NCBI RefSeq assembly: GCF_000747525.1
Contig: NZ_CP009278.1
Span: 4,960,001 to 5,024,000 of the forward strand
DNA length: 64,000 nucleotides
Direction: 5' to 3'
Origin: Sphingobacterium sp. ML3W
GTDB taxonomy: Bacteria > Bacteroidota > Bacteroidia > Sphingobacteriales > Sphingobacteriaceae
A model generated the notes under the pieces. That model ran no database searches and was not told where the DNA came from. It saw only the letters and a program-made list of their open reading frames with translations. Numbering within the stretch: the stretch's first letter is position 1; each line of letters opens with the position of its first letter. Made by a program: the position numbers and the translations under genes. Below are positions 13,640-37,534 of this stretch, piece by piece.

Positions 13640-13893
13640 GTGTGCCACGAAGACTTACGATCGTCAGTTAAAGACAATTGACAAAGTCATACTGCACTAA
13701 AGATGAGGGTCGGTCCCTCGAAATCTGAGTACAGGCTCTGGTTTCAAACCACCACGAGCTGCCAAGTTCAAAAGGCTTGGTGATGAGCGTCGTTGGAAAA
13801 GGCATACTAGTTAAAATGTCAGGTAAGAATTAAGAAGATAAGCAATTACAGTTTGTAGAAAGAAATCTGAAAGACCGCCTGGCCACATGTAAA

Positions 13894-14244
13894 TTGGAGC
13901 TATGCTCGGAAAAGACAAAAATTGTCTATTGCAAGGATTCAAATCAGCCAGAAACCTATAATACCTATAGTTTTGACTTTTTAGGCTTCACATTTAGGCC
14001 AAGAAGCCGTCGCTGTAAAAATGGAAGTTTTTTCGTGAGTTTTTCTCCAGCCGTTTCTCAAAAGAAATTAACTTTAATGCGGACGAAGCTAAAGAACCAT
14101 CCTGTAATTAAAGGGTGCTATAGTGTTAGTTTAGAGGAATATGCGAAAAATATCAATCCAGTCATTCAAGGTTGGATAAACTATTATGGAAAATTCAGAA
14201 AGTCGTCATTAAATTCTTTTATCGGTATATCAATGATAAGCTGA
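13894..14244 (+). pseudogene. Group II intron reverse transcriptase/maturase, C-terminal fragment
   Basis: The recognisable segments are LELCSEKTKIVYCKDSNQ, YSFDFLGFTFRPRSRRCKNG (end of the RT domain) and the maturase domain X part (INPVIQGWINYYGKF). Homology extends upstream to about 13838 (VERNLKDRLATCK). It continues downstream in other frames (YINDKLTNWLMRKYKSLQRR, RQLYLKDPRLFAHWKHFKWVTE, to about 14380), so at least two frameshifts are present. The YADD active site lay in the deleted part. Confidence 0.85.
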
Positions 14245-14383
14245 CAAATTGGTTAATGAGGAAGTACAAATCTTTACAAAGACGTGTTACTGGTGCTGGG
14301 AAGTTTTTTTAAGACAACTGTATCTTAAAGACCCAAGATTATTTGCTCATTGGAAACATTTTAAATGGGTGACTGAATAACAA

Positions 14384-14419
14384 GAGCCGTATGAGTCGAG
14401 AGGCTCACATACGGTTCTG
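14384..14419 (+). ncRNA. Group II intron domain V
   Basis: The hairpin GAGCCGTATGAG..CTCACATACGGTTCTG with a GAGA-type loop is the conserved catalytic domain V, including the AGC triad near its 5' end. The next 40 nt contain a domain VI-like stem (AGGGGTGAGACTCCCCT). Confidence 0.85.
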
Positions 14420-14459
14420 TGAGAGATTTAGGGGTGAGACTCCCCTTTATCTACTCGAC

Positions 14460-14659
14460 CAGTAGCTGAGAGCTTCTTTAAAACACTTAAAGCCGAATGT
14501 GTCTATCAACACAAGTTCATCGACAAAGAGCACGCAGTACGCATTGTATTCGAGCATATTGAAACTTGGTACAATCGTAAAAGGCTACATTCTGCACTTG
14601 GATACGTATCCCCAGAGGAATTCGGAAGAAATTTAAACAAACAAAATATTGCAGCTTAA
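14460..14659 (+). pseudogene. IS3-family OrfB, 3' part (copy B)
   Basis: The exon after the intron encodes AVAESFFKTLKAECVYQ (holding the DDE glutamate), then TWYNRKRLHSALGYVSPEEF, and stops at 14657-14659. It is the intact C-terminal end of IS3 OrfB and joins the 13639 exon in frame when the intron is removed. Confidence 0.82.
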
Positions 14660-15049
14660 CCGAATGTCTACTTTATTGTTGCAATTCCAACTTGGACATA
14701 TACCTGACAAAGTAAAATTTAATTTCTGTACCTGATATTGGGCTGGCATCTTATAAATTGGTTCTACTTTTTCAAGACAGGTTACGGTACCACATTCGAC
14801 ACAACTGAAATGTGCATGATTATGATGAAGATGGTCCTTACAATTACGACAGTCTGCAAATTTAAGATGCCCATCTATATTGATAAATTTATGGATATGT
14901 CCCTCTTCTTCAAGCCGCTCCAATACTCTGTAAATAGTAACCCTATTACATAACCCCACCAAGCTCTTTTCTATTTCCGAATGGGATAAAGCAACCGATG
15001 CATTGCTTATAAGATTGAATATTTCTGTTTTTGCAAGTGTATTTTTCAT
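14633..15049 (-). CDS. Fur/Zur-family metal-responsive repressor with IS-altered C-terminus
   Basis: The 138-residue reading has the Fur winged helix (about 8-62: LSHSEIEKSL, VTIYRVLERLEEEGHIHK), a His/Cys metal region (CRNC-KDHLHHNHAHF, 67-81) and the first structural-zinc pair Cys83-x-x-Cys86. The second pair should be C-x-x-C at residues 118-121, but the fourth position is Trp: the T of the codon is host sequence and GG comes from the end of IS3 copy B. The last 18 residues are IS-encoded, including a Cys at 123. The gene is divergent from the COG0523 operon and has two palindromes in its promoter, so it is probably an autoregulated zinc (or other metal) repressor. Whether it still folds is open. 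Confidence 0.88.
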   Translation of the reverse strand: MKNTLAKTEIFNLISNASVALSHSEIEKSLVGLCNRVTIYRVLERLEEEGHIHKFINIDGHLKFADCRNCKDHLHHNHAHFSCVECGTVTCLEKVEPIYKMPAQYQVQKLNFTLSGICPSWNCNNKVDIRLSCNILFV

Positions 15050-15070: not shown

Positions 15071-15083
15071 GCAACTTTGTTGC
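15071..15083. promoter_or_regulatory. Palindromic operator 1 (GCAAC-TTT-GTTGC), probable Fur/Zur site
   Basis: A perfect 5-bp inverted repeat with 3-bp spacer, 22 nt before the repressor ATG. The central TTTG (15076-15079) is also the -33 element of the plus-strand promoter. The same palindrome recurs at 15106-15118, 30702-30714 and 30740-30752. Confidence 0.75.
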
Positions 15084-15106
15084 CTTAGATTTTTTTCGTA
15101 TGTTTG
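15076..15106 (+). promoter_or_regulatory. Bacteroidota-type promoter of the metal operon (TTTG-N19-TATGTTTG)
   Basis: The -33 element TTTG (15076-15079) is exactly 19 nt from the -7 element TATGTTTG (15099-15106), an exact match to TTTG-N19-TAnnTTTG. The -33 box lies inside operator 1 and the -7 box runs into operator 2, so bound repressor should block RNA polymerase. Transcription should start near 15113, giving a leader of about 350 nt to the GTPase gene. Confidence 0.72.
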
Positions 15107-15120
15107 CAACTATGTTGCAA
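15104..15120. promoter_or_regulatory. Palindromic operator 2 (TTGCAAC-TAT-GTTGCAA)
   Basis: A 7-bp perfect inverted repeat around a 3-bp spacer, centred 35 bp from operator 1. It overlaps the last bases of the -7 element of the plus-strand promoter. Confidence 0.75.
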
Positions 15121-15138
15121 TAAAAGCGCGAATAATAT

Positions 15139-15369
15139 ATGATTCCTCAAGCATTTGAGTATTGGAAAAACCACATAATAATTGATTCCAACATTAACCT
15201 GATCAAATAATCTGCATGGATAAGATTTGGCGTATATAGCGATCTGGGAAATCTGGAAACACAAAAATTCGCTAACTTCCATGGGATCCAATACCTTCAG
15301 AACGTCATTCATTGGTTAAAAAAACTTGTGATAGTATCTAGGCAGGGGTCAGAAATAATGGACGGTTGA
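15139..15369 (+). pseudogene. Relic of a small leader gene in the metal operon
   Basis: Two coding-like pieces lie in different frames: MIPQAFEYWKNHIIIDSNIN from the ATG at 15139, ended by TAA, and SDLGNLETQKFANFHGIQ followed by YLQNVIHWLKKL, open to a TGA at 15367-15369. Together they look like one protein of about 75 residues broken by a frameshift and a stop. The family is not known to me. It would be the first gene after the metal-regulated promoter. The alternative is meaningless leader sequence. Confidence 0.4.
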
Positions 15370-15460
15370 TCGCTACTGATATATGCTGCACAATAGGAGG
15401 CAATTGTACCCATAAGAAGAATAAAAATACAAACGATAAAATCTCAAAAGAATTATATAA

Positions 15461-16705
15461 ATGCAAGGACAATCATTAATACCAAAAAGCGAACAGTTTG
15501 TTGGCAATAGGAAACTACCCGTTACAGTTTTAAGTGGTTTTCTTGGTGCAGGTAAAACTACGCTGCTTAACCATATTCTACATAACAAAGATGGACTAAA
15601 GGTCGCTGTCATAGTCAATGACATGAGTGAGGTAAACGTTGACGTAAGATTGGTGGAAAACGAAAACACATTATCTCGTACGGAAGAGAAATTAGTGGAA
15701 ATGAGTAATGGTTGCATCTGCTGTACGCTTCGTGAAGATTTGATGGTTGAAGTGGAAAAACTGGCAGAAGAAGGGCGGTTCGATTACCTTTTAATTGAAA
15801 GTACGGGTATCAGTGAGCCAATCCCTATAGCCCAGACATTTTCGTACGTCGATGAAGAAAATGGCATAGACTTGTCTCGCTTCTCCTATATAGATACGAT
15901 GGTAACCGTGGTGGATTGTTTCAACTTTTTTAAAGATTTTGGAACAAATCAATTATTACAGGATCGTGATCTCACAGATATAGAAGGTGATTACCGAACC
16001 ATTGTCAACTTGCTCATCGATCAGATTGAATTTGCCAATGTCATTATCCTGAATAAAACAGATTTGGTTGATAAGGATACTTTAGGTGTTTTAAAAGCAT
16101 CTATTCGTAAATTAAATCCTGAAGCAAAACTCATTAACTCAGAATTTAGTAAAGTAGATCCGAAAGAAATTTTGAATACAAAATTATTCAACTTTGAAGA
16201 TGCTCAAACATCAGCTGGCTGGCAGAAAGAATTGGAAGCAGAAAGTCATACACCCGAAACTGAAGAATACGGTATTACTTCCTTTGTATTTCGCAATCAG
16301 AAACCTTTTCACCCTGAACGCTTTTGGAGTTACCTCAATACAGATTACCCGAATGGAATTATCCGGGCAAAGGGTCTGTTTTGGCTGGCGTCACGCCCAA
16401 ATAACGCACTAAACTTCTCACAATCAGGAGGTTCTTCCCGACTAGAAAGTGCTGGTGTATGGTGGTGTAGCATGCCTTATTCTGAAAGAATAAATTATAC
16501 GCCGTTTTTGGAGAACGAAGACATAATAGAAGAGCGCTGGAGTAAACAATGGGGCGACCGCCTGAATGAATTGGTTTTCATCGGGCAGCATATTGACAAA
16601 GAAACGGTAATTGTCGATCTCGAGAAATGCTTGCTACAGATCGACGAACAATATTTGTTTGATGAGAACTTTAAGTTTGAAGATCCATTTCCAAAGGATA
16701 TTTAA
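15461..16705 (+). CDS. COG0523 (CobW/ZNG/YciC-type) metal-chaperone GTPase
   Basis: This 414-residue cytoplasmic G3E GTPase has a Walker A ([10 protein letters not shown], about 25-34), the metal-binding CxCC motif Cys85-Ile-Cys87-Cys88 in NGCICCTLR, a Walker B-like [10 protein letters not shown] and the guanine-specificity NKTD at 198-201. A CobW C-terminal domain occupies about 270-400. Family members move zinc, cobalt or other metals to client enzymes, and many are induced by zinc starvation under Zur. Here it is the first intact gene after the palindrome-overlapped promoter and divergent from the Fur-family repressor, which supports a zinc-limitation role. Two receptor genes follow in the same direction. 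Confidence 0.93.
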
Positions 16706-16768: not shown

Positions 16769-19129
16769 ATGAAAATATTAAGCAGCATATTAACTTTTAT
16801 TTTAATAGCAATCCCAACTTGGGTTTTAGCACAGAATATAGAAATTAAAGGAAAAGTAACAGATTCCGAAAATATTGCTTTACCCGGAGTTAACATTCAG
16901 GTAAAAGGAACAGATGCAGGAACCCTCTCCGATTTGGAAGGCAACTATTCCGTTAATACTCTAAAAGGAGCCGTACTTATTTTTTTACTTGTTGGTATGG
17001 CAACACAGGAAAAAGAAGTGAGCGAATCAGCAATTCTGAATGTGTCCCTGAAAGATGATGCGACTGAATTAGAAGAAGTTACCATTACATTAAAAAAGCC
17101 AGTTATTGTGGCTGATAAAGGAAAATTAACCTTTAATGTTTCTAATAATGCTGCAAATAGTGGTGTTTCCGCATTCGATTTGTTGAAAAAAATTCCTGGA
17201 ATAGGAGTCAGTCAGAACGATGACATTTCACTGCGAGGTTCTGGTGTTAATGTCATGATAGACGGTAAGATGAGTTTCATTTCTGGCAATCAACTCGGCA
17301 TTTATCTCAAAGGTTTAAATGCGGATGATATCAGAAAAATCGAATTGATAACTAATCCTTCCGCAGCATTTGATGCTTCAGGAAATACTGGCCTTATTAA
17401 CATTGTAACCAAAAAAAATAAAAGTAAAGGTTATGCACTTAGTTTACGCAGTGGTATTTCCAAAGGTACTTTTTGGATGAATAATCAAAATATATCAGCA
17501 AGTATCAATGAAGAAAAATGGAGTGTTTATGGTTCATTTGATTACAATACACCACATCGAGAAAGAAATAGCACAAGTGGCAACAGCATAATTGAAAATG
17601 GAGAACGTATTAATTTGGAAAGAAGCAACACTATCCCTTTCCAAATATATTATTATACCTATAAAGTAGGTGGTAATTGGAACTTCTCACCTAGGCACAC
17701 CTTGGGAATGCACTATCATGGATATCTTGATGATTTCTCTGGAACAAAAACTTCAGATATTTTAAAGAAAAAAGAAGATGGTACATTGCTTTCAAAAGTA
17801 TATTCTACTTATGAATTAAAAGAACCCTATCATTATGATGCCTATAATTTAGATTATCAGTTTCTCATCGATTCAATGGGAAAAAAAATAACTGCTGATG
17901 CCCGATATATTTCTTATAGAAATTACTCTGATGCAGTGATGATTGGAACGCATACAGGAGCAAATGGAAACACACTTTTTATCAATAATATCCGTACCCA
18001 TCAACCAGGGTCTATTAAAATAAAATCAGCTCAGATAGATGCAGAATTGCCTTTTGAAGGAATTAACATGAAAACAGGATTAAAGTTTGCTGAAGTGACC
18101 AATGACAATAATTTTCATTCAGAAGAGTTGATCAATGGCGAGTATTTACCAATTCCTTCAATGAACGATCATTTCAAATACAAAGAACAAATAAGTGCTG
18201 TTTATGGTTCAGCCTCAAAATCTTTTGGTAAAACGTCTATTGATCTTGGTTTAAGAGTTGAACACACTTCATCAAATTCCAGTTTAATTGATACCCAATT
18301 TAATCGGAAGAATGAATATACTCGATTTTTCCCTAATTTATCGGTCGGTCATCAATTTGAAAATGACAACAAACTTAACGTATCTATAAGTAGAAGGATT
18401 AATCGTCCTGCCTATTCTGAGTTGAATCCCGTAAGATGGTATAATGACGAATATTTTTATTTTGATGGGAATCCCGATTTAGTCCCAGAGATGGCTTGGT
18501 TGTCATCGGCTTCTTATGTGATAGCAAATAAATATATTTTTACGGCGGAATATGGTAAACGAAGCAATTACATTTCTCGCAGCCTTTCTTACGATCCCAA
18601 TGGCGTAACCATACGGTCGCAAAGTACCAACTTTGAAAATTTTGAAAGATTGGACCTCACTGTAATAACACCGTTGAAAGTAATTACTAATTGGGACATT
18701 CAATTGATGACGGGTGCAAATTATACAAAATATCCAATTTCAGAATCTGGTGTTGAAAATAATATTAAAAGATGGGCAGCCTTAGTATCTCTACAGCAAC
18801 AAATAAAATTTCTGAAACATTATTCGGCAGACATTTCACTTAAATACACCTCTCAGGAGCTTAGAGGTGTCTACCTAACGAATGATATCTTTTTTATGGA
18901 TTTTGGCGTTAAGCGTTCGTTTTTTAATAATAAGCTAGACGTAGCTATTTCCCTTAATGATGCTTTTAATACGTATCGGGAAAAGGGATATTCAAAAAGT
19001 CACCTCACAAATTATCATTATAATGATAAACCTGATTCAAGACGGTTCGGGATAACGTTGAGGTATAATTTTGGGGGAGATCTGATCAATAACAACAAAA
19101 AGAAAAGTGAAGAACAAGAGAGACTTTAA
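16769..19129 (+). CDS. TonB-dependent receptor, outer-membrane beta-barrel family (OMP_b-brl_3 type)
   Basis: This 786-residue protein has a signal peptide (1-21), a carboxypeptidase-regulatory-like domain (about 22-105: IKGKVTDSENIALPGVNIQV), a plug (about 125-215: VSAFDLLKKIPGIGV, VMIDGKMSFISG, IELITNPSAAFDASG) and a long barrel of the OMP_b-brl_3 kind. It lies 63 nt after the GTPase gene. The substrate is unknown; context suggests a metal, a metallophore or a metal-bearing protein. Its DNA looks more AT-rich than the next receptor gene, suggesting that the operon was assembled from different sources. Confidence 0.9.
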   Translation: MKILSSILTFILIAIPTWVLAQNIEIKGKVTDSENIALPGVNIQVKGTDAGTLSDLEGNYSVNTLKGAVLIFLLVGMATQEKEVSESAILNVSLKDDATELEEVTITLKKPVIVADKGKLTFNVSNNAANSGVSAFDLLKKIPGIGVSQNDDISLRGSGVNVMIDGKMSFISGNQLGIYLKGLNADDIRKIELITNPSAAFDASGNTGLINIVTKKNKSKGYALSLRSGISKGTFWMNNQNISASINEEKWSVYGSFDYNTPHRERNSTSGNSIIENGERINLERSNTIPFQIYYYTYKVGGNWNFSPRHTLGMHYHGYLDDFSGTKTSDILKKKEDGTLLSKVYSTYELKEPYHYDAYNLDYQFLIDSMGKKITADARYISYRNYSDAVMIGTHTGANGNTLFINNIRTHQPGSIKIKSAQIDAELPFEGINMKTGLKFAEVTNDNNFHSEELINGEYLPIPSMNDHFKYKEQISAVYGSASKSFGKTSIDLGLRVEHTSSNSSLIDTQFNRKNEYTRFFPNLSVGHQFENDNKLNVSISRRINRPAYSELNPVRWYNDEYFYFDGNPDLVPEMAWLSSASYVIANKYIFTAEYGKRSNYISRSLSYDPNGVTIRSQSTNFENFERLDLTVITPLKVITNWDIQLMTGANYTKYPISESGVENNIKRWAALVSLQQQIKFLKHYSADISLKYTSQELRGVYLTNDIFFMDFGVKRSFFNNKLDVAISLNDAFNTYREKGYSKSHLTNYHYNDKPDSRRFGITLRYNFGGDLINNNKKKSEEQERL

Positions 19130-19154
19130 AACGAATTGAAAACAAGAAATAAAT

Positions 19155-21371
19155 ATGACCAAATACAAGATTAACACAGATCCTGGGCTTTTAGATGATG
19201 CCAGAGGGAATTTTGAACATAGAATAATTGGGAATTGTCCCTTTAAGAAAATACTATATGGACTGGGCATCGCTGTGCTGTGCAGTAATGCAGTGCATGC
19301 CCAACAGGTGCAGAAAGATACCCTAACCACTTTGGACGAAGTAGTAATATTAGCACCGCTAAACAGGTCGTACGAAGTCAATGTCGGTGCTTTTGGAGCC
19401 AAGCATGTGATGGAAGTGCCGCTTTCCATTCAGAGCTATGGAGCAAGGCGTATTCGTGAGATGTCCGCACGGACGGTTCGTGACGTGCTGATCGCTGATC
19501 CTTCAGTACAGAGTTCCTCTTATGGAGGTGGTTTTGATAACTTTCGTTTGCGCGGTTTTGCGATGGATAACTTTAATACCATCCGCCGTGATGGGCTTGC
19601 ACTTGCGCCCCATTATGATGTACCATTGGAACTGGTAGAACGGGTTGACGTACTCAAAGGCCCGTCTGGATTCCTGTACGGATTTAATTCCCCCGGAGGC
19701 ACCATCAACTATATTCCCAAGCGGCCTAACCTTGAACCCTACACCAGTCTTACACTTCAGGGCTCTTCTTTGGGAGGATATTATGCTGCCTTGGACCAGA
19801 GCATGGTGTTAATGAAAGGTAAGATCGGTTACCGTCTTAATACAGGCTATGAGAAAGTCGGTAATTTCAACCATATGGGGGATCTGGAACGGAAGTTTGT
19901 CGGGCTGGCTACTGACTTGCGCATCAGTAAACGTGCCTTGCTACAATTGAATGCAGATTGGGTGTCTAAAAGTGCCATGTCCGATCCCTTATTACGTGCC
20001 GACCAAAGTGGTCGCACCGATTTGCTCGATCCTTCCACCTATATTCTTCCTCCAAAGGTAGACCGTAGGGATGCACTCTCGCCATCCTGGTATAAACATA
20101 AGACTCAAGCGTTTAACATAGAAGCCAAGTTCAATTATACCCTGAATGAGCGCTGGACTTCCATTACACAGGCAAACTACTCCCAGGTGACCCGTCATGG
20201 CGGTTATGTGGATCTGTTCAATATCCAACCCAATGGCGATATAGGCTATGCTGATTTGTACCAGTCCCGTGGTGAAGTATTCAGTACCTGGTCGATACAA
20301 AGTTATCTGGCAGGAAAGTTCTCCACCGCAGCGGTATCCCATGATCTGTTCACTGGCGTATCCCACCGGCAGTTCAAGGATAAAAGCCCTTTCTGGGATT
20401 TTGTGGAAAGTGCTGATGGCATCACAGTTAGTGATATATCTGTGGGTAATATCCTGAACCCGGTACAGCCTGACCGTTGGGATTTCGGTGTTGAAAAAGA
20501 AATTGATTTCAAATCCAGTATCCAGGAAAGTTCAGTTTTCGCAAGTGACCTGATTACATTGAACAAAAAGTTTCAGGTATTATTGGGCGGACGGTACATC
20601 TGGTACAAGGCCCGTAACTTGTCGACCGACGCCTTACCGCAGGATAGAAACGTATTTGTTCCTACCGGAGCCTTCATTTACCGCCCGCTCGGCAGCATGA
20701 TGACCTATCTAAGTTATTCCCGAGGATTTGAAAAAGGTGAAAATGCCCCCTTTAATGCCAACAATGCAAACCAGCCTACCGATGCCATTGAATCCGTACA
20801 GTATGAATTGGGACTGAAGCTAGACCTCAATAAAAGCATTAACATGGGTATTGCCCTGTTCGATGTGAGGCGAGATGCTACCTATCTCAACACGGCCAAT
20901 GATTTTGTCAGCGACGGGAGGTTCCACCACCGTGGAATTGAACTTAATGCTGCTGCCAGAGCGATTCGTAATCTGACGCTGCTAGGCAATATTGCCTATT
21001 TGGATACCGAACTTAAAGACGTGACCGATGAGGCTACAAGCGGTAAACGTACCGAAGGGACGCCACGTTGGAAAGGTACGTTTGGAGCACGCTACGCATT
21101 CACGAGTTTACCAAAACTTTCATTGGATGCGAACCTGAACCATACGGGAAGTCGTCCCGTAGACGCTCAGAACAGTGGTTTTATTCCAAGTTATACACTC
21201 CTGGATGCAGGGGTCAGCTACAATACCAAATTCGGTAAAACAACTACTTTATTGCGCTTACATGCCAGAAACCTAACCAATGAATATTATTATGCTGGGG
21301 TCTATTACAGCGGTGGTCTGGAGGTTGGACGTAGCCGAGAGGTTTTCTTGTCGGCACAGTTCAAATTTTGA
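19155..21371 (+). CDS. TonB-dependent siderophore/metallophore receptor
   Basis: This 738-residue protein has an unusual N-terminal extension of about 28 residues before the signal peptide (KKILYGLGIAVLCSNAVHAQ). The plug (about 75-205) carries SIQSYGARRIREMSARTVRD and VERVDVLKGPSGFLYG, followed by GGTINYIPKRP, typical of ferrisiderophore receptors. The barrel ends in a terminal Phe (REVFLSAQFKF). It lies 25 nt after the previous receptor gene. A collapsed paralogue with the same kind of N-terminal extension is at 30050-30664 under the second palindrome pair, which links this receptor type to the regulon. The ligand could be a siderophore or a zincophore. Confidence 0.92.
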   Translation: MTKYKINTDPGLLDDARGNFEHRIIGNCPFKKILYGLGIAVLCSNAVHAQQVQKDTLTTLDEVVILAPLNRSYEVNVGAFGAKHVMEVPLSIQSYGARRIREMSARTVRDVLIADPSVQSSSYGGGFDNFRLRGFAMDNFNTIRRDGLALAPHYDVPLELVERVDVLKGPSGFLYGFNSPGGTINYIPKRPNLEPYTSLTLQGSSLGGYYAALDQSMVLMKGKIGYRLNTGYEKVGNFNHMGDLERKFVGLATDLRISKRALLQLNADWVSKSAMSDPLLRADQSGRTDLLDPSTYILPPKVDRRDALSPSWYKHKTQAFNIEAKFNYTLNERWTSITQANYSQVTRHGGYVDLFNIQPNGDIGYADLYQSRGEVFSTWSIQSYLAGKFSTAAVSHDLFTGVSHRQFKDKSPFWDFVESADGITVSDISVGNILNPVQPDRWDFGVEKEIDFKSSIQESSVFASDLITLNKKFQVLLGGRYIWYKARNLSTDALPQDRNVFVPTGAFIYRPLGSMMTYLSYSRGFEKGENAPFNANNANQPTDAIESVQYELGLKLDLNKSINMGIALFDVRRDATYLNTANDFVSDGRFHHRGIELNAAARAIRNLTLLGNIAYLDTELKDVTDEATSGKRTEGTPRWKGTFGARYAFTSLPKLSLDANLNHTGSRPVDAQNSGFIPSYTLLDAGVSYNTKFGKTTTLLRLHARNLTNEYYYAGVYYSGGLEVGRSREVFLSAQFKF

Positions 21372-21479
21372 TTGCTGAACGGGAAAAATAATGGATAGAG
21401 AAAGTAAACCTATTGAATCGTTAATTGATTACAGCTTTAAACCTATTAACACAATCACTTGCACTAAAAAAATAAAAAT

Positions 21480-22181
21480 ATGATAACGATAGAAAATACA
21501 AAGAAGTCTTTCAAAGGCAAAATGGCGGTTCAGGGGCTTTCATTATCCGTGAAAGAGGGTCAGATATACGGCTTGCTTGGACCGAACGGGGCAGGAAAAT
21601 CGACTACCCTGAATATGCTGCTTGGATTTTTGCAGCCCGATAGTGGCACTACACACATCAATGGAATAGATGTTGGGCAAAATGCAACTGAAAGCCGAAA
21701 ACAGATCGGTTACATTCCCGAAAATGTCAATCTGTACCCGTATCTCTCAGGAATGGAGAACCTGGATTATTTCTGCAAACTTTCAGGCTTAACCTATAGC
21801 AATGACGAACTTTCTGGTTTTTTATCAGATTGTGGACTTCAGCCAGAAGCCCATCATAAGCGGACAGAAACTTACTCCAAAGGTATGCGCCAGAAAGTAG
21901 GGATTGCTATTGCTTACGCAAAAAAAGCTAAAGTATATCTGTTGGACGAACCAGCGAGCGGCCTAGATCCTATGGCAAGTAATGAGCTGTCGGCTATCCT
22001 AAAAAAACTTGCAGATGACGGTGCGGCAGTCCTGATGGCTTCACATGATATTTTCAGGGTTAGGGAAACTTGCCATAAAATCGGGATCCTAAAAAATGGC
22101 ATCCTAGTGAAGGAACTTGAAACTAAAACCGTTACTGCTGAAGAACTGGAGCAGATCTACCTTGATTATATGAACAATTAA
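21480..22181 (+). CDS. ABC transporter ATP-binding protein (ABC-2 type)
   Basis: This 233-residue ATPase has a Walker A GPNGAGKST (34-42), a Q-loop near IGYIPENVNLYP, the signature YSKGMRQKVGIA in place of LSGGQ (usual for ABC-2 exporters), a Walker B YLLDEPASGLDP and a His switch in MASHDIF. It would power the two permeases that follow directly. It starts 108 nt after the siderophore-type receptor. The combination of receptor, ATPase and two large-loop permeases recurs in Gram-negative metal loci as I recall it, but the transported molecule is not known to me. Confidence 0.93.
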   Translation: MITIENTKKSFKGKMAVQGLSLSVKEGQIYGLLGPNGAGKSTTLNMLLGFLQPDSGTTHINGIDVGQNATESRKQIGYIPENVNLYPYLSGMENLDYFCKLSGLTYSNDELSGFLSDCGLQPEAHHKRTETYSKGMRQKVGIAIAYAKKAKVYLLDEPASGLDPMASNELSAILKKLADDGAAVLMASHDIFRVRETCHKIGILKNGILVKELETKTVTAEELEQIYLDYMNN

Positions 22182-22189
22182 ATAGTAAA

Positions 22190-23602
22190 ATGATGAAACA
22201 GATCATATCAAACGAATGGAAATCGTTGCTCAGGGTGAAGGCTTTTTCTTATCTGACCTATTTCTTTATCATGAGCTTAGGAGTTGTTTCCTGGCTGGGA
22301 ACAGTACAGAACAAGGAGCAAGATGTACAGCAAAAAAAAGCTACTGAACATGTTCGTGCGCAATGGGAAAACATTAAACAAATGAACACACATAGTGCAG
22401 CTCATTTTGGTTCGTATGCGTTTAAACCTGTTACTCCTTTGAGTAGTATGGATGATGGTGTAAGTGCGAGTACAGGAAATGTAATTCGTTTGGAAGCTCA
22501 TGTCCAGAATGAAACTGCATATTCGGAGGCTTCACAATCTCTCAGCATTTCAAAATTCGGAAAGCTTAAACCATCACTAATTCTGCAATTTGTCATCCCC
22601 TTATTTCTGATCTTTCTAGCCTTTAATTCAGTAAGCAAAGAAAAAGAACAGGGAAGATTGAAACTGCTGGTCTTACAGGGAGCCAGCCTGCCCAAATTGG
22701 TTGTAGCAAAAACCATCGGCGTCTGGACGTATGGAGTTTTATTACTGCTGTTTACCCTGGTGGTCCAGATCCTGCTGAACCTCCAAAGTATTTCGGTAGA
22801 CTATTTTTGGAGATTATCTTTATTGTTCTTCTCCTACTGCGCCTACTATTATGTGGTTACGGCATTAACCGTTTATTTTTCGGCCAGATTAGCAAATAAT
22901 ACAGCTGCTCTTTCTTCCATGATTGCCGTATGGCTGCTATGGACCATCTTCCTGCCTAAAATATGGGGTAATTCGGTAGAGAAAATATATCCCCTGCCCA
23001 GCCGTGAGGAGTTTAAAGCTTTAATGGCTCAAGATCGTTCCCAAGGCATTGACGGTCATAATCCTTCCGATAAAAGAGGAAAGGCATTCGAGGAAAAAAT
23101 ACTGGCGCAGTACAAGATGGATAGTTTATCCCAACTTCCCGTCAACTTCGATGGCATGCGCATGCAACAGGACGAGGAATACGGAAATATGGTATGGGAC
23201 AGGCATTTTGGGAACAAATATAAGGTGCTGGAAAAACAAAAAAAAACCTATCAATATTCCGGTATTATCAATCCCTTTGCCTCTTTACAGGATGCCAGTA
23301 TGGGATTCAGCGGCAGTGACATGTTACATTTTGTGAATTTCCAATTGCAGGCAGAACACTACCGTAGGATTCTGATCAAAACCCTCAATGACAAACAGAC
23401 TTATGGAGGTTCAAAAACCGGGGACTGGGGCTGGAAAGAAAACAATGATTTTTACCGGTCGGTAAAGGATTTTGAATATCGGACGCCGGTATTAAAGGAG
23501 GTTTGGTCCAGCTATAGTCTTAATCTTCTGACATTGGCACTATGGGTCGTTTTTACCACCATATTGATCATTTTTGGTTCTAAAAAAACAACTATATTAT
23601 GA
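22190..23602 (+). CDS. ABC-2 permease with large periplasmic domain (DUF3526-related), subunit 1
   Basis: This 470-residue protein has a first transmembrane helix at about 20-40 and then an extracytoplasmic region (about 45-120) with HSAAHFGSYAFKPVTPLSSMDDGV and EAHVQNETAYS. Helices follow between about 125 and 260, a second large periplasmic region spans 265-440, and a final helix lies near 445-465. This arrangement is typical of permeases paired with DUF3526 proteins. The next gene starts 4 nt before this one ends (ATGA overlap), so the two are translationally coupled. It forms a heterodimer with the next protein, by inference. Confidence 0.88.
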   Translation: MMKQIISNEWKSLLRVKAFSYLTYFFIMSLGVVSWLGTVQNKEQDVQQKKATEHVRAQWENIKQMNTHSAAHFGSYAFKPVTPLSSMDDGVSASTGNVIRLEAHVQNETAYSEASQSLSISKFGKLKPSLILQFVIPLFLIFLAFNSVSKEKEQGRLKLLVLQGASLPKLVVAKTIGVWTYGVLLLLFTLVVQILLNLQSISVDYFWRLSLLFFSYCAYYYVVTALTVYFSARLANNTAALSSMIAVWLLWTIFLPKIWGNSVEKIYPLPSREEFKALMAQDRSQGIDGHNPSDKRGKAFEEKILAQYKMDSLSQLPVNFDGMRMQQDEEYGNMVWDRHFGNKYKVLEKQKKTYQYSGIINPFASLQDASMGFSGSDMLHFVNFQLQAEHYRRILIKTLNDKQTYGGSKTGDWGWKENNDFYRSVKDFEYRTPVLKEVWSSYSLNLLTLALWVVFTTILIIFGSKKTTIL

Positions 23603-24912
23603 AAATCAGTCAGCACATAAAATTCGAAATTTTACATTTTTCAAGAAGCAGATTCAAGGTTATCTCATTGTTTCTGTTTCTTATTGCCGCCGTTTACGGG
23701 TTGCAGAGCGGATGGGAACTGTTTCAAAAACAGACACGGCAAATAACAGCCATTGAAAGCAAAAATGCCCAGAGCGTGCGTGATGTTCTAAACTGGTACG
23801 ATACCCAAAAGAAAGGTCCGGAGGAAAAATACTGGATCGATATTACAACGCCTTATTGGGCAAGTATGTACGCACCGATTACTGTTTTGAAGAAACCTTC
23901 CACGTTATTGCCCTTCAGTATAGGCCAGACAGAACAGTACGGATATTACAAGAATGTCAACATCAGAAGCTCGGTATTTGATGCAGACCTGGCCGAAGAA
24001 ATTTCCAATCCTGAACGATTGAGTGTAGGGACATTGGATTTCGGTTTTGTAGTGATTTATTTATTACCGTTATTGATTATCATCTTATTATTTAATGTTG
24101 GTGGACTGGAGAAAGATCTTGATTTTTACCGTTTGATAGAGGTGCAGCAGGGAGCTTCGTCCCGATGGCTTATCGCTCGATATGCATTTTATTACGGTTT
24201 ATTAGGATTGTTGCTATTACTGGTAGCACTTCCTTATGCATATATGAGTGGAGCATTGTACCAACAAGCTTTTCAGTTTTTTTTATTACCTATTTTGCTG
24301 TACGGATATATGTTGCTTTGGTTTGTTATTTACTATCTAGTGAATAGAGAAGGTAAAGGAAGTGCGAGCCAAGCGATAAAGATGGTTTCTGTATGGGTGA
24401 TGCTGAGTGTCATTCTTCCTGGTTCTATTCACCAATTTGCTTCATTGAAGTATCCTATGACTTACCTTACCGATTTTTTAGAAGCCAATAGGGATGAACT
24501 ATACAAACTGCAGGACACACCACCGGAAAAAGTTACCCAAAATCTTTTTACAGCATATCCAGAATTGGCAAAAACAAAATCTGCAATGGAAGACAGTATC
24601 CCAGATAAAAATATCATTGGAAATTCATTGGATGCTTTGATCAATATATCAAGTAAACAAGCTGCAAAACGGGAAGAAAAATATAATGAAACCAAGAACG
24701 GTTTTATTAAAAGCACCTATTTGATAAACCCTGTGTTATTTTTTCAAAATACGCTTAATGCCCTATGTGGTACAGATTATTATGCATATCAACAGTTCAG
24801 AAGTGAAATCCAAACCGCTATCGATAAAAAAGCAGGTACTCTTTTATTCGATACCTGGAATAAGGAGGTCATAAATAAAGAAAATTACCTGAAATATCTG
24901 AGCGTGGAATAA
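23599..24912 (+). CDS. ABC-2 permease, DUF3526-type, subunit 2
   Basis: This 437-residue membrane protein has the same plan as the preceding permease: one N-terminal helix (about 18-36), a periplasmic region, a helix cluster (about 140-290, including VVIYLLPLLIIILLFNVGGLEKD) and a second periplasmic region (about 290-430). It overlaps the first permease gene by 4 nt. With the ATPase these genes form a complete heterodimeric ABC system, probably acting on a ligand linked to the neighbouring receptor, for example exporting a metallophore or handling it in the envelope (inference). Confidence 0.88.
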   Translation: MKISQHIKFEILHFSRSRFKVISLFLFLIAAVYGLQSGWELFQKQTRQITAIESKNAQSVRDVLNWYDTQKKGPEEKYWIDITTPYWASMYAPITVLKKPSTLLPFSIGQTEQYGYYKNVNIRSSVFDADLAEEISNPERLSVGTLDFGFVVIYLLPLLIIILLFNVGGLEKDLDFYRLIEVQQGASSRWLIARYAFYYGLLGLLLLLVALPYAYMSGALYQQAFQFFLLPILLYGYMLLWFVIYYLVNREGKGSASQAIKMVSVWVMLSVILPGSIHQFASLKYPMTYLTDFLEANRDELYKLQDTPPEKVTQNLFTAYPELAKTKSAMEDSIPDKNIIGNSLDALINISSKQAAKREEKYNETKNGFIKSTYLINPVLFFQNTLNALCGTDYYAYQQFRSEIQTAIDKKAGTLLFDTWNKEVINKENYLKYLSVE

Positions 24913-27067: not shown

Positions 27068-27952
27068 TTACATCCAATAACTTCCACTTTCAAAGGGAGT
27101 ATCTACCGCCTCTTCCCAATCAGCTTCAGCTTCTTCAACAGAGACATTAAATTCATTCGCTATATCGGAAATAAATTGATCAAAATCATCACCAGAAGGA
27201 CGTTCAGCAAATACTCTAACAGGAATTTTAAGATTTAAATCTTGGGTGGCTAAAAAGGCATTACTTGGTGCATTAAATGGAGATGGATTTCCGTTTTGAT
27301 CTAACTTATTGCCTTTCATTATATGAACCAAAATAACATTCAAATCAAATTGGGTGTAAGATTGATTAACAAAAAAGTAACCTTTTAAACCTATTGGATC
27401 CTTGCTGCCCCGTAAGACAACACCGTTATGTGTGAACATACCATCCTCAGGATTAGTATCACGATATACATAGTCTAAAATTGTACTGGCAGCAGGAAAA
27501 TCAATATCCGTATCGATTTTCTTGGCATTTTTTGATAGAAAAAAATGTTGATGAATCGGTGCATTTTTCTCGGTTGTGAATTCAGAATTCATACGTTCTC
27601 CTTTTTTATTAAAATAAATAATTTCCAAAGCATAGATTTCATCTTTAATTAACCGAATAGGCACATCTGGCTTAATTAAATTTCCGGTTTCATCGTACTC
27701 ATAACTGATTTCCTGAACGGATTTGAAATATTTAACGTTGTCATTAATGGGATTTCCATGAAAAGTTGCACCATGCAGATGTCCACGGTGAAATTTAAAT
27801 GTTACTTTAGCCCAATCATCATGTCCTAAATCTGAGGTTTCATCAGTGGGGGTTACAGGCATATCGTCATCTTTACTGCAAGAGGTTAATCCTAACATAA
27901 TCATGACTGAGAATGCAAATAAAACGGTTTTAAACAATTGTCGTGTTTTCAT
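27068..27952 (-). CDS. His-rich lipoprotein, putative metal-binding partner of the adjacent receptor
   Basis: This 294-residue protein has an LTSC lipobox (Cys25), an acidic linker (KDDDMPVTPTDETSD) and a histidine cluster at residues 44-65 (GHDDWAKVTFKFHRGHLHG..FHG). A second His pair occurs in NAPIHQHFF (about 130). The rest looks like a beta-sandwich that may bind a ligand, with an acidic C-terminal tail (VSVEEAEADWEEAVD). It lies 10 nt after the receptor gene and before a strong terminator, so it is the last gene of that operon. By inference it captures zinc or another metal at the cell surface and passes it to the receptor. I do not recognise the family by name. Confidence 0.75.
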   Translation of the reverse strand: MKTRQLFKTVLFAFSVMIMLGLTSCSKDDDMPVTPTDETSDLGHDDWAKVTFKFHRGHLHGATFHGNPINDNVKYFKSVQEISYEYDETGNLIKPDVPIRLIKDEIYALEIIYFNKKGERMNSEFTTEKNAPIHQHFFLSKNAKKIDTDIDFPAASTILDYVYRDTNPEDGMFTHNGVVLRGSKDPIGLKGYFFVNQSYTQFDLNVILVHIMKGNKLDQNGNPSPFNAPSNAFLATQDLNLKIPVRVFAERPSGDDFDQFISDIANEFNVSVEEAEADWEEAVDTPFESGSYWM

Positions 27953-30685: not shown

Positions 30686-30721
30686 TATATTTGCAATCAA
30701 TGCAACATTGTTGCAAATATA
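30686..30721. promoter_or_regulatory. Divergent promoter elements overlapping operator 3
   Basis: TATATTTG on the plus strand (30686-30693) faces the repressor relic. TATATTTG on the minus strand (30714-30721) faces the receptor operon, and its last bases run into the palindrome at 30701-30715, exactly as the -7 box TATGTTTG runs into operator 2 at 15099-15120. Confidence 0.6.
30701..30715. promoter_or_regulatory. Palindromic operator 3 (TGCAAC-ATT-GTTGCA)
   Basis: A perfect 6-bp inverted repeat with a 3-bp spacer, adjoining the minus-strand -7 element of the receptor operon. Confidence 0.75.
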
Positions 30722-30739
30722 ACGATTATATCCACAAAC

Positions 30740-30752
30740 GCAACATTGTTGC
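30740..30752. promoter_or_regulatory. Palindromic operator 4 (GCAAC-ATT-GTTGC)
   Basis: A second perfect palindrome, centred 38 bp from operator 3 and about 20 nt before the repressor relic's ATG. The pair repeats the arrangement at 15071-15120 (centres 35 bp apart). Confidence 0.75.
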
Positions 30753-30772: not shown

Positions 30773-30916
30773 ATGAAACAAACAAGAAATACAGTAGCTA
30801 AGGCGGAAATATTAAGATTTATCAGCCAATCTGAAATTGCTCTATCTCATTCTGAAATACAACATACTCTGAATGGCTTGCGTGATAGGGTTACTACTTA
30901 CAGAATATTAGATTGA
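30773..30916 (+). pseudogene. Fur/Zur-family repressor, N-terminal fragment cut by an IS element
   Basis: The 47 codons read AKAEILRFISQSEIALSHSE and GLRDRVTTYRILD, aligning with residues 4-44 of the repressor at 14633-15049 (LSHSEIEKSL, CNRVTIYRVLE). The frame ends at the TGA that is the first three bases of the IS407-like element. The recognition-helix region is present but the metal-binding half is gone. The remainder of the gene is not found on the other side of the IS, so sequence was deleted there. Confidence 0.85.
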
Positions 30917-36196: not shown

Positions 36197-37534
36197 ATGA
36201 ATCGCTACCTATTGTTAGCCAAATTTTTAGGAGCCTTATTTTGTTTAACAAGTTGTGATAGCAAAAGTGAGCTTACTGAAAAAAAACATGACCCTAGTAA
36301 ACCGGTCATGCTTACATCTTTTTACCCAAATGAAGGCGGAGCACGAGACAAAATCCTGTTAGACGGTGAAAATTTCGGAACTGACCCGAGCAAAATCAAC
36401 GTTTATTTCAACCGTGCCAAAGCCTCTGTAATCGCAGCCAGTGGCAATCGTATCTATGCCATTGTTCCACGTCTTCCAGGCGATAACCCCAGCATCTCTG
36501 TTGTTGTAAACGGAGATTCGGTGGTTTACAACGACCCTTTTATTTACCATATACAGGCACAGGTAAGCACCGTGACGGGCAACGGGCAAAAAAACTTTAA
36601 GCCTGGTGTCCTTTCTGAGGCTGAAGTGTATGGCAAATACCTAGAACTTGATGCCGAGGGCAACATCTTTATGTCATGGCGCGATGGGGGCACCCCAGCC
36701 ACTTTTGGAGTAGCCCGGATTAACGAGCGACAGAACATCGTTACGCCATTGATAGAATCTGTCGCGACCGGACGTATCCTCTATGCCAATGGCTTGACCG
36801 TAGACCGCGCTACGGGAATGCTAACTGTTGCGCATGAATCGGTCAAGGAAGTCATATTTACATTCGACCCACGAGAAGCTTGGTATCCGCGCCAACGAAA
36901 CGTTAAGTACTCAACGGCAGATTATAATTCGATTGTAGCTGCCGATTTGTACAAAAATTTTGTCACTTTCTGCCCGTATGATGGGTATCTATACACACGA
37001 TACCGCGATGGAAAGATTGCCAAAATACATCCCGAGACCCTTGAAGCAACCATTGTACACCAAGGCCCCTATGGATCCCAGTACGGTCAGGCAATCAATC
37101 CGGCCAAACCTTGGTTGCTGTACATTACCCTACATTCGAATGCCACACCCACCGAATTCAAACAAGGCATTTCGGTACTCGACCTACGCGACCCCAACGG
37201 AACCGGAGGATTTAAACGCCTCAATGCACCTGGTGGCAGAGGTTTTAAAGATGGTCCAATTGCCGATGCCCTTTTCAACTACCCTAAAGACATTAAGTTT
37301 GACAACAGCGGCAATATGTTTGTTGCCGATTATGGCAACCATTGTATCCGTATGGTATCTGCCGACAATATTGTGACCACAGTAGCTGGGCAGCCAGGTA
37401 CTCCAGGATATAAAGATGGAGGTCCTGTAGAATCGCAATTCAATCAACCTTGGGGAGTAGCAGTCAACGAGCAGGGAGATATCTACATCGCAGATTGGAG
37501 CAATGCACGCATACGTAAATTAGTTATCGAGTAA
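36197..37534 (+). CDS. IPT/TIG and NHL-repeat surface lipoprotein
   Basis: This 445-residue protein has an LTSC lipobox (Cys20), an IPT/TIG immunoglobulin-like domain (about 36-115: PVMLTSFYPNEGGARDKILL, GENFGT) and a beta-propeller of NHL repeats (about 120-445), seen in FDNSGNMFVADYGNHCIRMV and NEQGDIYIADWSNARIRKL. Such proteins are common first or accessory genes in SusCD loci and probably bind glycan at the cell surface. It is 118 nt upstream of the broken susC in the same direction, so it likely belongs to the same locus. Confidence 0.88.
   Translation: MNRYLLLAKFLGALFCLTSCDSKSELTEKKHDPSKPVMLTSFYPNEGGARDKILLDGENFGTDPSKINVYFNRAKASVIAASGNRIYAIVPRLPGDNPSISVVVNGDSVVYNDPFIYHIQAQVSTVTGNGQKNFKPGVLSEAEVYGKYLELDAEGNIFMSWRDGGTPATFGVARINERQNIVTPLIESVATGRILYANGLTVDRATGMLTVAHESVKEVIFTFDPREAWYPRQRNVKYSTADYNSIVAADLYKNFVTFCPYDGYLYTRYRDGKIAKIHPETLEATIVHQGPYGSQYGQAINPAKPWLLYITLHSNATPTEFKQGISVLDLRDPNGTGGFKRLNAPGGRGFKDGPIADALFNYPKDIKFDNSGNMFVADYGNHCIRMVSADNIVTTVAGQPGTPGYKDGGPVESQFNQPWGVAVNEQGDIYIADWSNARIRKLVIE

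Follow-up and report, generated by a model that had tools for sequence, protein, structure and literature searches.

Two palindromes lie between a repressor gene of the Fur family and divergently oriented receptor genes in the window, by which we mean the whole 64,000-nucleotide stretch of Sphingobacterium sp. ML3W DNA analyzed here. A sequence-only reading had taken them for operators in zinc control. This raises the question which protein would read such a pair, how it would act on the promoter nearby, and whether anything useful is still controlled at a locus in which the repressor gene itself is truncated.

Palindromes and genes of the 30.7-kb locus

The locus comprises the following elements:

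30702-30714, putative operator 1 (proximal palindrome), GCAACATTGTTGC, spanning -5 to +8 of the predicted receptor-side promoter
30740-30752, putative operator 2 (distal palindrome), GCAACATTGTTGC, an exact copy of operator 1
30721-30714, minus strand, -7 box TATATTTG of the receptor-side promoter, final G shared with operator 1, predicted start ~30709
30686-30693, plus strand, mirror-image TATATTTG, candidate -7 box of the divergent zur, predicted start ~30698
30773-30916, plus strand, truncated zur, ATG at 30773, TGA at 30914-30916, 47 codons
30050-30664, minus strand, first ORF on this strand, remnant of a siderophore-type TonB receptor, 204 aa
27963-30032, minus strand, full-length frame of a hemin/ZnuD-like TonB-dependent receptor, 689 aa
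27068-27952, minus strand, frame of a His-containing lipoprotein, 294 aa, distantly related to a lipoprotein encoded at 3.54 Mb

Both putative operators match GCAACA-T-TGTTGC exactly and start 38 bp apart, just as originally described. The truncated Fur-family gene was confirmed as well: its 47 codons, counted from 30773, end at the edge of an IS3-type element, and across these 47 aa the product shares 85-89% identity with the intact copies. The proposed minus-strand receptor operon stood in part. Its first ORF is only a remnant, 66% identical to the receptor of locus L021 over the first 170 aa only; whole members of this receptor family are found at 19155-21371 and in L021. The term receptor operon is therefore valid only for the genes behind the remnant, where the frames of a receptor and a lipoprotein are full-length. 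Relatives of this second receptor adjoin zur in L057-L062, L064 and L107 (22-31% identity). The lipoprotein shares 23% identity with the one at 3.54 Mb (E 5e-7), and a Pfam search assigned it to no family; its structure model, built from one sequence, had a mean pLDDT of 38.6 and was set aside. Since both zur and the first receptor are broken, control at 30.7 kb must come from Zur copies elsewhere. The operon remaining behind the remnant is presumably expressed.

Paired sites in the window and the genome

The same architecture is found at a second locus of the window (locus 1):

14633-15049, minus strand, locus 1 zur, end codons replaced by IS sequence
15071-15083, distal palindrome, GCAACTTTGTTGC
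15099-15106, plus strand, -7 box TATGTTTG, last base shared with the proximal palindrome
15106-15118, proximal palindrome, GCAACTATGTTGC
15461-16705, plus strand, ZigA-type COG0523 GTPase, Pfam cobW and CobW_C
16769-24912, plus strand, two TonB-type outer membrane proteins and ABC transporter genes, following ZigA

Here the palindromes are spaced by 35 bp. Together, the 30702/30740 and 15071/15106 pairs account for all four exact GCAACNNNGTTGC sites of the window. The 5.33-Mb genome contains 11 such sites, against 2.6 expected from the base composition of the window and none for the reversed control. Ten of the 11 form five close pairs, against a chance expectation of 0.002 pairs within 100 bp: the two window loci (35 and 38 bp) and the pairs at 37128/37166, 3545546/3545584 and 4066114/4066152, all three spaced by 38 bp. 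Three pairs neighbor a Zur-like gene, one the IS-cut zur of the 30.7-kb locus and one a His-rich lipoprotein gene. The remaining site, at 3964321, is solitary and located within an ORF, and was excluded as a regulon member. A fixed-gap search of the genome at 38 bp, tolerating as many as three mismatches, returned the four known pairs and no further ones. Two-mismatch matches were no more frequent in the window than expected by chance (24 versus a shuffle mean of 19.4, with at least 24 in 19 of 100 shuffles); the signal is thus restricted to exact sites, and these matches were discarded.

The two window loci had been put forward as independent evidence. Their common architecture holds, but they are paralogs, with Zur copies 57% identical and receptors of the same family, and hence not independent of each other; the genome and class comparisons are. 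Across the three paralogous control regions (window, L018, L021) all 20 half-site columns are invariant, compared to 16 of 31 spacer and center columns (Fisher 9e-5).

Conservation in relatives

We searched relatives for two copies of CAACNNNGTTG placed 33-40 bp apart, taking the class as Bacteroidia on the grounds of its gene content and of the named homologs. Such pairs occurred in 10 of 93 genomes of the genus (reversed control 0) and in 27 of 395 genomes of the class, for which the reversed control gave 15 by our own row count. Loss of conservation in relatives, looked for because it would have spoken against the operators, was not found. Outside the source genome, 19 of 26 places in the class carried a -7 box, and by our count these fall into 12 families. 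A spacing control of 41-70 bp yielded 20 of 395 genomes in forward and 38 in reversed orientation (again our row count). These matches were mostly repeats and coding-like sequence, with two (G298 and G477) that resemble real sites.

Upstream regions of homologous genes gave a similar picture. We scanned 1.2 kb upstream of 30 cassette-type Zur homologs on named contigs (Pedobacter, Chryseobacterium, Elizabethkingia and Bacteroidota MAGs), allowing up to two mismatches per site and three in all. A pair with 36-39 bp spacing was present upstream of 20 homologs, many of them each other's close relatives, and in none of 1800 shuffles (60 per homolog). The ten homologs lacking a pair belong to Pedobacter (L035-L037), Chryseobacterium (L039/L040), Elizabethkingia (L052-L054), L055 and L064; L053 and L054 have one near-perfect site each, and L064 two sites at a distance of 29 bp. 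The lipoprotein encoded at 3.54 Mb has homologs in 74 of the 93 genus genomes. For the 30 best, the own genome's included, upstream regions were scored with a matrix built from the own genome alone, and 22 had a pair scoring above all 100 shuffles. All 22 also carried a -7 box within one mismatch (20 perfect), and the proximal palindrome was degenerate in two of these loci (L149 and L151). Five of the eight misses (L160-L164) matched the inner part of a longer frame, whose true upstream region lay outside the scan.

A predicted promoter within the pair

The primary sigma factor of F. psychrophilum uses TAnnTTTG as its -7 box, at -12 to -5 (PMC9723704). With this geometry the predicted receptor-side start at ~30709 falls inside the proximal palindrome. 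In agreement with the sequence-only reading, the minus-strand -7 box runs into the palindrome as it does at locus 1, TATATTTG and TATGTTTG both sharing one base with it. The plus-strand TATATTTG at 30686-30693 is identical in L018 and L021, and the two opposed boxes make up most of the inverted repeat I2.

We counted the -7 box at 40 pair places from the genus and class searches, five of them from Sphingobacterium sp. ML3W itself. TAnnTTTG, the -7 element of primary promoters in Bacteroidota, was found at one palindrome without mismatch in 22 of the 40 places and with at most one mismatch in 33, compared to 0.86 and 6.2 expected from shuffled spacers; the 40 places are partly non-independent, as L065 and L066 are near copies. 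The box was absent from seven. Among the 33 boxed places the spacing was 38 bp in 19, 37 in five and 35 in three, the remainder being 34, 36, 39 or 40, a distribution bounded by the search range of 33-40 bp.

On the minus strand, a TTG in operator 2 (30743-30741) lies 19 bp ahead of the -7 box, at -34 to -32, and this spacing suggests that it may serve as -33 box. The TTG near -33 is contained in the palindrome by construction. For B. fragilis a TTTG near -33 is reported, but for F. johnsoniae PMC7366714 gives no -33 motif as found, and this makes the -33 step of the argument weaker. A palindrome TTG positioned 19 bp before a TAnnTTTG that ends in the other palindrome could account for the preferred spacing of 38 bp.

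Genes on the -7 side

Several genes that follow the -7 box are known zinc-starvation genes. ZigA/COG0523 GTPases occupy this side at locus 1 and in L074, L080, L098 and L100. At a distance of ~430 bp, GTP cyclohydrolase I (FolE) does so in L090, followed there by ZigA, and in L095. DUF1826 lies on this side in L084 and L099, with ZigA next in L099. All three gene types, found here behind the motif in several genomes, are known associates of Zur (PMC2770081). Further genes on the -7 side encode a TonB receptor (L073), ABC ATPases (L079, L089) and lipoproteins with the motif HGDHFHG (L065-L070, L072) or GNHFHG (L075). In eleven places a Zur-like frame adjoins the pair (L071, L074, L076, L077, L082, L088, L089, L090, L095, L098 and L099), and it always lies opposite the -7 box side. 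We infer from this gene content that the -7-side genes constitute a zinc-starvation regulon. No zinc annotation was found for the oxidoreductases of L082 and L092 or for L083, L094 and L096; the scan omitted L088, L091, L097 and L103.

The presence of a pyridine-nucleotide-disulphide oxidoreductase after the pair in L082 and L092 (by Pfam) and L093 (by resemblance) was unexpected for a zinc regulon. The HGDHFHG lipoprotein family (L019 8812-9495, L065-L070, L072, and 27068-27952 of the window) has no Pfam family and is a candidate surface zinc binder.

Candidate repressor proteins

Three copies of the repressor match the FUR domain PF01475 with 35, 29.2 and 26.2 bits (cut-off 23.1), which places them in the Fur superfamily. 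The two intact copies, encoded at 37.2 kb and 4.066 Mb, are 126 aa long and contain both CxxC pairs of a structural zinc site (C87/C90 and C122/C125). The final pair is altered (CPSWNC) in locus 1 zur, and both are missing from the 47-codon copy. Among solved structures E. coli Zur is nearest (4mtd, E 3e-6); a Fur-family regulator (7e-6) and a Fur (9e-6) follow within a factor of three. Residues H56, C70, H80, C87, C90, C122 and C125 align with H77, C88, H96, C103, C106, C143 and C146 of E. coli Zur, so that the intact copies align at seven of its eight zinc ligands. Of the site B ligands H77, C88, H96 and E111, the first three are matched; E111 is placed within an insertion, E97 being close by. 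C88 is described as the most conserved site-B residue across Zur proteins (PMC4219657). The NCBIfam Zur model PRK11639 scored 35.8, 29.5 and 24.9 bits against a cut-off of 167. As this model is of enterobacterial type, the miss bars the equivalog name, though not a Zur-like function. The Fur model outscores Zur for locus 1 zur, and PerR scores slightly higher for the L018 copy.

Cassette-type Zur (E below 1e-50) was present in four of the 93 genus genomes; it is accompanied by pairs in the own genome, G051 and G033 and by one site in G032. Every genome of the genus encodes a more distant Fur-like protein, 36% identical in the own genome. None of the 26 core Fur-like loci inspected had a site scoring above 11, compared to 18.4-23.8 for the own genome's sites. 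Since 21 of the 22 genomes with lipoprotein operators lack cassette-type Zur, another protein would have to read these operators there, and the core Fur-like protein is the simplest, and a likely, candidate.

A probable double operator closing one promoter

We consider it very probable that the two palindromes are operators of a zinc-sensing Zur that would jointly block one uptake promoter. When zinc is plentiful, a Zn-Zur dimer would occupy the proximal palindrome, where the -7 box ends and transcription is predicted to start, and a second dimer the distal palindrome over the -33 region. With both bound, the promoter would be closed to RNA polymerase. A drop in zinc would release Zur and allow expression of the uptake operon. 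The earlier proposal of operators within a divergent repressor/uptake layout is supported here by five genomic loci and many relatives, and target genes and ligand residues speak for zinc as its metal.

That the motif is generally a Zur operator while the 30.7-kb locus is a decaying relic, with nothing useful left to control, appears unlikely to us, though it deserves consideration. It would fit the insertion elements around the locus, the break in zur at codon 47 and the decayed first receptor ORF. Against it stand the undamaged palindromes and -7 boxes, the full-length frames for a receptor and a lipoprotein that come next on this strand, and the intact Zur copies persisting at 37.2 kb and 4.066 Mb. 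We regard it as improbable that a Fur-family regulator sensing another metal or heme (Fur, PerR or Mur-like) acts here and that the operons import iron or heme. This reading draws on the receptors of the window, which match siderophore and hemin receptor models, on the Fur and PerR models, whose scores for these repressors are about level with that of Zur, and on the closeness of the second and third structural matches. It has to face the targets in relatives (ZigA, FolE and DUF1826), the alignment of C70 with C88 of E. coli Zur (PMC4219657), and the likely Fur locus of the genome (L012, the strongest PF01475 match), which has no site. Finally, the region is rich in insertion elements, and the palindromes might have arisen by chance or derive from repeats such as insertion element parts or terminators. 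The 11 sites against none in the reversed control, half-sites that are kept while centers vary, relatives with the same pairs and -7 boxes, and the lack of a T run after the palindromes make such an origin hardly credible.

Beyond the double operator itself, we see about an even chance that Bacteroidota possess a Zur with a promoter-fused double operator, into whose shared circuit mobile zur/receptor cassettes are drawn. If palindrome letters double as -33 and -7 boxes, operator and promoter could not drift apart and their spacing would be held. Arriving cassettes with an extra zur and a receptor would use the same operator code as the zinc genes of the host and thereby join its circuit, and where insertion elements kill the local zur, as at 30.7 kb, the remaining copies would take over the operator.

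Relation to known zinc regulators

Two Zur boxes in one promoter are described for B. subtilis yciC and S. coelicolor znuA, where their significance is unclear (PMC6103462). As in our reading, a zinc-dependent Fur-family repressor has boxes over the -35 and -10 regions, and yciC is, like ZigA, a COG0523 target. However, box sequence and sigma-factor promoter differ, and yciC and znuA are single cases, whereas here pairing occurs in all five genomic loci and operator and promoter share letters. E. coli Zur is the closest solved structure; its site A cysteines and three of its site B ligands have counterparts here, at low overall similarity. At znuABC it binds as adjacent dimers in one box (PMC4219657), in contrast to the separate palindromes 38 bp apart. 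The gene content resembles Zur-linked COG0523 clusters, in which COG0523, GTP cyclohydrolase and DUF1826 are tied to Zur; the Zur sites in that survey are mainly from Firmicutes, proteobacteria and some cyanobacteria, and its main text contains neither the word Bacteroidetes nor Flavobacter (PMC2770081). Within the same phylum, P. gingivalis PgFur is a Fur-superfamily member modelled on E. coli Zur among others; it lacks the histidine-rich metal motif of most members of this superfamily (PMC6613475), whereas the proteins described here have a His-rich stretch.

Our literature search, with subscription papers and RegPrecise outside its scope, yielded no Bacteroidota Zur box, and the words Bacteroid and Flavobacter are missing from the main texts of two reviews (PMC6103462, PMC8000910). 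The operator sequence, its recurrent pairing and the letters common to operator and promoter appear to be new. Operator-level zinc control had no description in the literature searched for the Bacteroidota, a major phylum of gut, soil and water. Motif and preferred spacing would provide a way to list zinc-starvation genes phylum-wide, including functionally unassigned receptors and His-rich lipoproteins, and the motif points to bases worth mutating. The sharing of a regulon by several repressor copies, some apparently mobile, becomes testable.

Cassettes and mobile elements

Within ~10 kb of the intact cassettes we found RteC and DUF3945/DUF4099 genes (L018 10855-19374) and genes for a relaxase, a coupling protein and a ParA-like protein (L021 14915-20000). 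From these neighbors we infer that the intact zur cassettes probably sit on conjugative elements. Plasmid records contained no close relative of cassette-type Zur at E 1e-15. At locus 1, insertion-element sequence has cost zur its tail and changed the final Cys pair, which reads CPSWNC instead of CPxC. The ZigA-type protein at 15461-16705 scored 543 bits against NF038288, under the cut-off of 600.

Some further observations concern these loci. In the ~350 bp between promoter and ZigA at locus 1 (leader 15119-15460) no gene was recognized. ABC ATPase and DUF3526 permease genes follow the siderophore-type receptor in both cassettes (window 21480-24912, L021 4293-7831). A group II intron at 13705-14459 of the window, identified by two Rfam matches and a maturase fragment, apparently interrupts an IS3-type transposase, and the far end of this transposase is the sequence now found in place of the final codons of locus 1 zur.
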